Made by a program: the position numbers and the translations under genes. A DNA stretch of 64,000 bases from Turneriella parva DSM 21527. GTDB lineage: Bacteria; Spirochaetota; Leptospiria; Turneriellales; Turneriellaceae. The notes under the pieces are model-generated. The model did not search any database and was not told the DNA's origin. It was given only the letters and a program-made list of their open reading frames with translations. The stretch spans positions 2,790,001 to 2,854,000 of the forward strand of contig NC_018020.1 in NCBI RefSeq assembly GCF_000266885.1, read 5' to 3'. How positions within the stretch are numbered: position 1 is the first letter of the stretch; every line of letters begins with the position of its first letter. Positions 52,337-54,268 of this stretch are shown in pieces.

Positions 52337-53092
52337 ATGAAGACGGTGATTGAAGACCTGAAAGACGCAGTGGTCATTGTAACGGGCTCTGGGCGCGGTA
52401 TTGGTCGCGGTATTGCCGAGCAATTTGCCGCGCAGGGCTCTAAGCTTGTCATAACCGACATCGACGCGGCAACTGCCGAGCAGACGGCGCAAGAAATCGC
52501 CAAAATGGGCGTCGAGACAATCTCAATGGCCTGCGACGTGTCAAAATATGATCAGGCAGAGGCGCTCGCGAACAAAGCCGTCGAAAAATGGGGAAAAATC
52601 GACGTTCTGGTCAATAACGCCGGTATCACTATGGATGGCCTGTTTCTGCGCATGAAGCCCGACCAGTGGCAGAAAGTCATCGACATCAACCTTACCGGCA
52701 CATACAACTGCGCGCATGCGGCAGTGAACCACATGCGCAAGGCGCGCAAAGGTGCCATCGTCAACATCAGCTCGATAGCAGCAGGCGGTAACCCCGGCCA
52801 GGCTAACTACAGCGCCTCAAAAGCCGGCGTGCTCGGCTTTACCTATGCGCTCGGCAAAGAGCTCGCACCGATGGGCATTCGCGTCAACGCGGTCGCCCCC
52901 GGGTTCATCAAAACCCCCATGACTGATAAAATTCCAGAGAAATTGCGTGAGCAGATGATCGCCGCAATCCCTCTCAAACGACCTGGAGAACCCGATGACA
53001 TCGCCAAAGTCATCTTGTTTCTCGCGTCTGACCTCTCCGCGTACGTGACCGCGCAGTGCATTCACGTGAACGGCGGACTAGCCGGCCTATAA
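52337..53092 (+). CDS. fabG: 3-oxoacyl-[acyl-carrier-protein] reductase
   Basis: The 251-residue FabG reduces 3-ketoacyl-ACP with NADPH in fatty acid synthesis. Conserved blocks: VTGSGRGIGRGIAEQFA (cofactor), VNNAGITMDGLFLRM, NISSIAAGGNPGQANYSASKAG (catalytic Ser, Tyr and Lys), and NAVAPGFIKTPMTDKI. acpP follows 158 nt later, the usual FabG-ACP neighbourhood, though fabD and fabF are absent here. A short A+T-rich inverted repeat begins at its stop. Confidence 0.96.
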   Translation: MKTVIEDLKDAVVIVTGSGRGIGRGIAEQFAAQGSKLVITDIDAATAEQTAQEIAKMGVETISMACDVSKYDQAEALANKAVEKWGKIDVLVNNAGITMDGLFLRMKPDQWQKVIDINLTGTYNCAHAAVNHMRKARKGAIVNISSIAAGGNPGQANYSASKAGVLGFTYALGKELAPMGIRVNAVAPGFIKTPMTDKIPEKLREQMIAAIPLKRPGEPDDIAKVILFLASDLSAYVTAQCIHVNGGLAGL

Positions 53093-53113
53093 TTTTGATA
53101 ATATGAAAATTAT
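53089..53113. repeat. A+T-rich inverted repeat after fabG
   Basis: ATAATTTT (53089-53096) and AAAATTAT (53106-53113) are perfect inverted repeats with a 9-nt spacer, beginning at the fabG stop codon. It might be an operator or the region of a promoter for acpP (TATAAT and TTGATA occur here), but no clear -35/-10 pair with 17-nt spacing can be defended. Confidence 0.4.
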
Positions 53114-53152
53114 GGCAAAATAAAATACGGGACGAACTTGTTCTCGCAACGC

Positions 53153-53189
53153 GGGGATCTTAAGGGGCGAAGCCCCTTAAGTAATCCCC
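53153..53189 (+). repeat. Long palindrome (TTAAGGGGC/GCCCCTTAA type) upstream of acpP
   Basis: CTTAAGGGGC (53159-53168), loop GAA, GCCCCTTAAG (53172-53181) is a perfect 10-bp hairpin; it is extended by GGGGAT (53153-53158) pairing with ATCCCC (53184-53189) across a 2-nt bulge. The same kind of palindrome occurs between 23S and 5S rRNA (60521-60543). It has no U-tract after it, so it is not a classical terminator. Confidence 0.7.
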
Positions 53190-53192
53190 CCG

Positions 53193-53244
53193 CTCCTTTT
53201 GGGGCGGGAAAACGCTGCGCGTTTTCAATCCGCCCCAAAAGGAG
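53193..53244 (+). promoter_or_regulatory. Hairpin sequestering the acpP ribosome-binding site
   Basis: CTCCTTTTGGGGCGG (53193-53207) is perfectly complementary to CCGCCCCAAAAGGAG (53230-53244). Inside it GAAAACGC (53208-53215) pairs with GCGTTTTC (53219-53226) around a TGC loop, leaving only a 3-nt AAT bulge. The 3' arm ends with the AAGGAG box that serves acpP (ATG at 53251). The stem of 23 bp would hide the ribosome-binding site completely, as in an RNA-based translational switch; no ligand or protein that opens it is known. Confidence 0.75.
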
Positions 53245-53250
53245 ACCCAA

Positions 53251-53493
53251 ATGGCTTCAACAGAAGAAATCATGGGCAAAGTAAAAAAAATCATCTCTGA
53301 GCAACTCGGAGTTGACGAAGGCGAAGTGACCAACGAGTCACACTTCATCGACGACCTCGGCGCAGACTCACTGGATACAGTGGAACTCGTCATGGCTCTC
53401 GAAGAGGAATTCGGTATCGAAATTCCTGACGAAGACGCTGAAAAAATCCAGACAGTCGGCGACGTACAGAAGTACATCGAAGAACACTCTTGA
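53251..53493 (+). CDS. acpP: Acyl carrier protein
   Basis: An 80-residue acidic ACP carrying the 4'-phosphopantetheine site at the Ser of [19 protein letters not shown]. It is the carrier for acyl chains in fatty acid synthesis. An AAGGAG box lies 6 nt before the ATG and is buried in the hairpin at 53193-53244. acpP ends before a strong bidirectional terminator and converges with trmH. Confidence 0.97.
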
Positions 53494-53502
53494 TTTGTGC
53501 TG

Positions 53503-53528
53503 GCCTGCCCGACTCAGGTTGGGCAGGC
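53503..53528. terminator. Bidirectional terminator between acpP and trmH
   Basis: GCCTGCCCGAC (53503-53513), loop TCAG, GTTGGGCAGGC (53518-53528) form an 11-bp GC-rich stem with one mismatch-type pair, followed on the plus strand by TATCTTTT. The right arm touches the trmH stop codon, so it can end both transcripts. Confidence 0.75.
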
Positions 53529-54268
53529 TATCTTTTCAGCCTGGTCCAGTCTGACCAGAGCTGCTCTTTCTCTTCTTCGCTAAGTCCCCAGTCAACAGTC
53601 TCAGAGCGCAGACGATCGCTCAGATAAAAAAGAATCATCGCGGCCGTGACAGAAATATTGTAACTCTCGGTAAACCCGAGCATCGGCAGCGCAATCGCAG
53701 CATCGGCGTTTTCGATTGCCCAGTCGCTGAGGCCCCAATGTTCGCTGCCCAATACAATCGCGTATTTTTTCGTGATGTCGAGTTCGCGTAGTGGGGTGGA
53801 TCTACCCCGTGGGCTCGTTGCGAGCACCGTATAACCATCTTTTTTTAGCGCGGCGAATGCGGCTGCTGTGGAATGCTGCACTCCCTCTGGCTTGATGCGA
53901 AAGTCGACTTTGGTGTTCGCGAAATTTTCGCGGTATTTTTTAATCGTCAGCCAGCTCGCCGCACGACCCGCAACCTTTGCGTGCGCATTGAAGGCATGGC
54001 GGTTCTCGGCGATATGAATATCCTGTATGCCCAGACCGTCAGCGGTGCGCAAGACTGCACTGGCATTCAGGGGGTCGTAAATATCTTCCAGCAGAACAGT
54101 GAGGCGGCGCGTGCGGTTTGCGAGCGCGGCCTGCAATCTTTCGCGGCGCTTTTCAGTTAAGAATCGCGCATCACCGTCACCCGTCACCATGTGCCGAATT
54201 GGCAGGCATTTTTGCAGCTCTGTCAACCTTAAATGTCTCCCTGTCGTCTCAAGGCGCTGATGTGACAT
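53528..54268 (-). CDS. trmH: tRNA/rRNA 2'-O-methyltransferase, TrmH (SpoU) family
   Basis: A 246-residue SPOUT methyltransferase of the TrmH subgroup, which methylates Gm18 of tRNA. Motif 1 is DPLNASAVLRTADGLGI, motif 2 VLGSEHWGLSDWAIENADAAIALPM, motif 3 GFTESYNISVTAAMILF (knot region, SAM binding). The N-terminal helical extension resembles TrmH rather than RlmB. It is transcribed away from the rRNA operon promoter 18 nt upstream. Confidence 0.92.
   Translation of the reverse strand: MSHQRLETTGRHLRLTELQKCLPIRHMVTGDGDARFLTEKRRERLQAALANRTRRLTVLLEDIYDPLNASAVLRTADGLGIQDIHIAENRHAFNAHAKVAGRAASWLTIKKYRENFANTKVDFRIKPEGVQHSTAAAFAALKKDGYTVLATSPRGRSTPLRELDITKKYAIVLGSEHWGLSDWAIENADAAIALPMLGFTESYNISVTAAMILFYLSDRLRSETVDWGLSEEEKEQLWSDWTRLKR

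Follow-up and report, generated by a model that had tools for sequence, protein, structure and literature searches.

The window analysed here, a 64-kb stretch of the Turneriella parva genome (4,409,302 bases in two contigs), contains, on the + strand, the two genes that flank the element described below. The upstream one, fabG, encodes 3-oxoacyl-ACP reductase (52337..53092; TIGR01830, 311 bits for a cut-off of 298) and ends with a TAA stop codon at 53090-53092. The downstream one, acpP (53251..53493), had been taken for an acyl carrier protein gene in a preliminary description of this DNA, and the assignment holds, as both NF002148 and TIGR00517 score above cut-off (120 bits against 70 for the latter). 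A single PF00550 match exists in the T. parva genome, acpP thus being the only ACP-type gene found, for a protein that is essential and usually abundant. Beyond acpP, a terminator-like hairpin of 13 pairs followed by TCTTTTCAGC occupies positions 53501..53530 of the same strand, and a scan of 52950-53560 found no promoter-like site on the + strand. A gene for RNase III is present in the genome. The organism grows at 11-37 C, with long-chain fatty acids serving as its source of carbon (PMC3746428).

The fabG-acpP spacer includes, on the + strand, a 52-nt inverted repeat (53193-53244), hereafter B2. Its 5′ arm (53193-53207, CTCCTTTTGGGGCGG) and its 3′ arm (53230-53244) are exactly complementary over 15 bp, separated by a spacer of 22 in an inverted-repeat search. 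The region between them (53208-53226) folds into an inner stem of 8 bp, with 53208-53215 paired to 53219-53226 around a TGC loop (53216-53218; UGC in the RNA), and the only interruption of the helix is a 3-nt bulge, AAT, at 53227-53229. The SD motif AAGGAG (53239-53244) lies within the 3′ arm, 6 nt ahead of the acpP ATG at 53251. The geometry given in the preliminary description was accurate in all these respects, and the fold that it had proposed as a check, that of 53115-53300, has an RNAfold minimum free energy (MFE) structure containing B2, with z = -6.96 relative to 200 dinucleotide shuffles, none of which was equally stable.

The predicted energetics are considerable. B2 folded alone reaches -38.2 kcal/mol, and its two arms, taken as a duplex, -30.7 kcal/mol. 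Opening the acpP SD would cost 11.8 kcal/mol, the highest value among the 33 genes of the window (median 3.8), and in a larger genome sample just two of 119 genes with an SD-like site exceed it; both of these have GTG starts, called by a crude gene finder, and 4-nt SDs adjoining the base of another perfect hairpin. By MFE as well as by opening energy, the SD is thus predicted in silico to lie in a stable helix of the leader. In growing transcripts this hairpin becomes the MFE structure only once about position 53240 has been transcribed, and for an RNA starting at 53236 the SD is computed to be 91% unpaired.

A long hairpin is in itself not rare in this genome, since a 464-kb sample (the window plus a 400-kb sample, L135-L154) includes 24 perfect inverted repeats of at least 15 bp, mostly with loops of 3-4 nt and mostly differing in sequence, some of them inside long ORFs. 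Within the window, no perfect inverted repeat of 13 bp or more (spacing up to 60) occurs other than B2. What is unusual about B2 is its position on the SD and its evolutionary history, not its length. Two control hairpins, L141:12051-12094 and L148:8147-8186, are absent from every congener in which the site could be aligned. A dispersed palindromic repeat of the REP, RPE or MITE kind was also considered and rejected: B2 has only self-matches in its own genome, and in the congeners it matches only the acpP site. Among the palindromes of the sample, which include L141:14484-14530 as well as the two controls, one of 20 bp inside an ORF resembles an insertion, is missing from three congeners and is reminiscent of gene-inserted palindromic elements, though without shared sequence; three (L154:5133-5176, L142:5982-6021 and L135:18549-18588) share the apical half-arm GTAGGGGTAGGT, so that a small repeat family may exist.

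In a genome-wide search with the pattern CYCCTTN{10,40}AAGGAG, the acpP site is the only match in T. parva. This uniqueness is weaker evidence than it appears, because AAGGAG occurs at only about a fifth of the frequency expected from uniform base composition (24 observed versus 113 in 464 kb) and a control pattern also gave zero matches; AGGAGG is likewise much rarer than the uniform expectation (7 versus 113 in the same sample). Few genes of this sample carry a strong SD, and acpP is among them.

The history of the element was followed in seven Turneriella genomes, namely that of T. parva and six others (G001-G006). B2 is present in four of them (T. parva, G002, G003 and G005) and differs by no more than four changes, while fourfold-degenerate sites differ from those of T. 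parva by 52%, 23% and 43% in G002, G003 and G005, respectively. The 3′ arm carrying the SD is the best conserved part and is nearly invariant in these three species, and three of the four variable columns fall among the six unpaired positions of loop and bulge (P = 0.003). The near-invariance suggests purifying selection on structure or on sequence. Together with the folding, it supports the earlier proposal of an SD-hiding hairpin on acpP: the helix persists in four species and its variable bases lie in the loop and the bulge. In G005 one outer pair, the second, is broken (U-A to C.A), and the opening cost of the SD drops to 6.1 kcal/mol.

The comparison of acpP upstream regions for covarying pairs, which the preliminary description had suggested for the Leptospirales, gave a divided answer: B2 shows no compensatory change across the four species that carry it, and covariation appears in the adjacent upstream hairpin, B1. 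In the remaining congeners, G001, G004 and G006, AAGGAG and its 6-nt spacing are kept, unrelated hairpins stand upstream and the SD is free, with an opening cost of 0.3-0.6 kcal/mol versus 6-12 in the species bearing B2. Burial of the SD is thus lineage-specific. It is not order-wide either, as in the relatives examined from the family and the order the spacers are shorter or unrelated and SD opening costs 0.2-5.4 kcal/mol. In a fabG tree of weak resolution, the four SD-burying species do not group cleanly together. Nevertheless, a stable hairpin of some kind, of unrelated sequence, occupies the fabG-acpP spacer of all seven congeners. That of G006 (L091) is an imperfect hairpin of about 100 nt, somewhat tRNA-like; ARAGORN finds no tRNA in it and Rfam gives no match.

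Between T. parva and G002, the spacer stretch 53127-53250 is 98% identical, whereas the fabG stretch differs by 18%. Strong constraint or an exchange of short DNA between species may account for this identity; G003, a closer relative than G002, has a diverged B1.

Two further hairpins precede B2 on the + strand. Hairpin A (53085..53116; GCC-ATAATTTT ... AAAATTAT-GGC) spans the fabG stop codon and holds a TATAAT at 53088-53093. By eye, a pattern GGCCTATAATTTT...AATT..GGCAAAA of variable loop length recurs in the family and in parts of the order. An automatic alignment gave no covariation for hairpin A, and for this reason order-wide conservation as RNA is not claimed; the sequence may reflect a promoter, an RNA hairpin or codon constraint. 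Hairpin B1 (53150..53192), part of the MFE structure, has an inner stem (53159-53168/53172-53181) and an outer stem (53150-53158/53184-53192). Five of the ten inner pairs have changed on both sides and none is broken, in an alignment of only four sequences that was cut by hand to line up the loops.

The foot of B1 and the 5′ arm of B2 can also pair in another way. In this competing pairing, S2 (53189..53208, + strand; CCCGCUCC-UUUU-GGGGCGGG), a candidate antisequestor, 53189-53196 pairs with 53201-53208. S2 can form in all four hairpin-bearing species, at -15.8 kcal/mol in each, and as the transcript grows it is the MFE structure for 3′ ends between about 53208 and 53236, until the SD hairpin replaces it near 53240. 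In the complete leader the S2 state is 17-19 kcal/mol less stable. As modelled, the B1 outer stem, S2 and the SD hairpin are arranged like a switch with three states, although pairings of the S2 kind come cheaply where G and C occur in runs.

Several known classes of regulatory RNA do not fit. Temperature control, one of the modes that had been envisaged for the hairpin, is not supported by the fold: the predicted unpaired fraction of the SD is 0.5% at 37 C and rises only to 1% at 42 C in an organism growing at 11-37 C, so that the helix is far too stable for an RNA thermometer and heat cannot release the SD. Control by a ligand fares no better, as only simple hairpins are seen and no Rfam family was recognized; no meaningful match came from cmscan searches of the loci of ten relatives or of the region in the window (E ≤ 1), a hit to SNORD11 from the latter lying on the opposite strand and far below the gathering score. 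An intrinsic terminator or attenuator was discarded too, since no U-run follows the helix (what comes after the 3′ arm is ACCCAAATGG) and the one site returned by a terminator scan lies beyond acpP.

The reading that we favour, tentatively and with somewhat less than even confidence, takes B2 as a brake that acts in cis on the translation of acpP and is released when the helix is cut or opened, most plausibly through processing by a nuclease. The pairing in silico, its energetics and its conservation are results; we infer that the 5′ arm belongs to the acpP mRNA, that the helix represses translation and that a nuclease opens it. The intact mRNA would fold into the 23-bp helix whose outermost pairs hold AAGGAG, and initiation on acpP would be low because the SD is held there, in a helix presumably too stable for ordinary binding of the 30S subunit. 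RNase III typically acts on near-perfect helices of some two turns, and an endonucleolytic cut of such a long stem by an enzyme of this type would part the 5′ arm from the SD, leaving a shortened acpP mRNA whose site is open and from which ACP would be made. A cut near the tip only would leave the arms paired (by the duplex energy given above) unless the 5′ fragment were removed. The brake is favoured by the opening cost of the SD and by the conservation of B2 in the face of change at fourfold-degenerate sites, which the two control hairpins do not share. We rank processing first as heat is predicted not to open the helix, an RNase III gene is present, the SD is open in silico in an RNA starting at 53236, and precedents exist in Staphylococcus aureus. 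Against the brake, three of the seven congeners manage without SD burial, G005 has lost an outer pair, and B2 itself has no compensatory change. A regulated switch and a constant processing step may both be accommodated by the sequence.

The overlap of B1, S2 and B2 lends itself to a different explanation, a switch controlled by a factor and operating without cleavage. Four segments would pair in alternation as 1:2 (B1 outer stem), 2:3 (53189-53208) or 3:4 (SD hairpin), and a protein, an sRNA or another signal would tip the balance, turning acpP translation on or off. The persistence of S2 in four species though the surrounding B1 region has diverged would accord with this, as would the covariation of B1, the passage of growing transcripts through S2, and the T-to-C change of G005, which breaks a pair of the SD hairpin and at the same time strengthens S2 (G-U to G-C). 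The stability deficit of S2 with the full leader and the cheapness of such pairings among G/C runs weigh on the other side, and neither an aptamer, an SD-led leader peptide nor an Rfam match was detected; on balance we regard it as unlikely, albeit worth keeping in mind. In its most elaborate form, a novel class of riboregulator in Turneriella, a three-way RNA switch built on the same elements would couple synthesis of the only ACP to fatty acid supply via a protein or RNA factor, which we consider quite doubtful. It is also conceivable, but rather improbable, that B2 is a passive set-point fixing a low rate of initiation, with ribosomes loading before the helix closes and with neither release step nor signal. 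The late formation of the SD hairpin, after 53240, would leave time for this, and the open SD of three congeners indicates that evolution can tune the level. Yet a penalty of 12 kcal/mol on the strong SD of an essential single ACP gene would be costly, and strict conservation of the entire helix exceeds what a set-point needs.

If the spacer hairpins served to protect or to separate the fabG and acpP messages, the SD overlap would be a side effect, and the occurrence of some stable hairpin of unrelated sequence in every congener would be readily understood. Such a boundary or stability element does not need to overlap the SD, given that the hairpin stops short of it in G001, G004 and G006, and the best conserved part of B2 is precisely the arm containing it; we therefore hold this explanation to be quite improbable. 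Least credible of all, and very improbable, is that B2 is no leader element, being a DNA palindrome, perhaps one of the many in this genome, or having an arm that stays outside the acpP transcript owing to a message start close to the ATG. Palindromes are indeed frequent (the 24 repeats above, some in ORFs), the two that were tested are not conserved, and in Leptospira interrogans leaders are often very short (PMC5243855). B2, by contrast, is conserved and single-copy, and its variable positions are mostly unpaired ones; every congener retains the SD and its distance from the ATG, and the promoter scan of 52950-53560 came out empty on the + strand.

In S. aureus, a member of a distant phylum, the ACP leader has been reported to hide or process the RBS. 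A conserved hairpin burying the SD of the sole ACP gene in a spirochete that feeds on fatty acids would therefore suggest more than one origin of post-transcriptional control of ACP. The use of long-chain fatty acids by T. parva offers a possible, conjectural reason to hold back fatty acid synthesis, and the close congeners with and without SD burial constitute a natural experiment. In the papers searched, no publication on the acpP leader element of T. parva was found, and the element is absent from the RNA library searched (Rfam).

Comparison with known systems helps to place the element. In ermC-type attenuators, alternative 1:2, 2:3 and 3:4 pairings are combined with an SD in segment 4. 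The predicted pairings of the acpP leader share this layout, SD included; unlike in those attenuators, segment 1 is not overlapped by a leader peptide with an SD of its own. As read from the sequence, the only candidate frame, ATGAAAATTATGGCAAAATAA from 53104, ends upstream of segment 1 and lacks an SD, so that membership in this class was rejected, and with it a leader peptide MKIMAK, which has no SD and is in part simply the right arm of hairpin A. The sRNA RgsA reportedly controls AcpP in Pseudomonas aeruginosa, according to work by Lu et al. in 2016. The likeness resides in the post-transcriptional control of ACP synthesis and the difference in that RgsA acts in trans; to our knowledge, no hairpin of the B2 kind takes part in it.

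Closer parallels come from S. aureus. In the leader of acpP/hmrB (SA1075), hairpin I is predicted to sequester the RBS, and a cut at +16, possibly by RNase III, was proposed by the authors to free it (PMC3937233). Gene function and a hairpin predicted over the RBS of an essential ACP mRNA are common to both cases, a likeness of description rather than of sequence comparison; the phyla differ and the origin is apparently unrelated. The SA1075 hairpin also covers the start codon, and its cut was observed in the form of a 5′ end, whereas in T. parva the cut is putative. In cspA of the same bacterium, the mRNA becomes more stable and is translated more once RNase III has cleaved a helix in its leader (PMC3386247); there, as here, a long near-perfect helix (32 bp in cspA, 23 bp in T. 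parva) stands upstream of the coding region. The gene is another one, its cleavage has been demonstrated and that of B2 is presumed, and in T. parva the SD itself lies in the helix. By analogy, B2 would work like an SD-sequestering leader relieved by a nuclease, the presumed cleavage being the step that defines the class.
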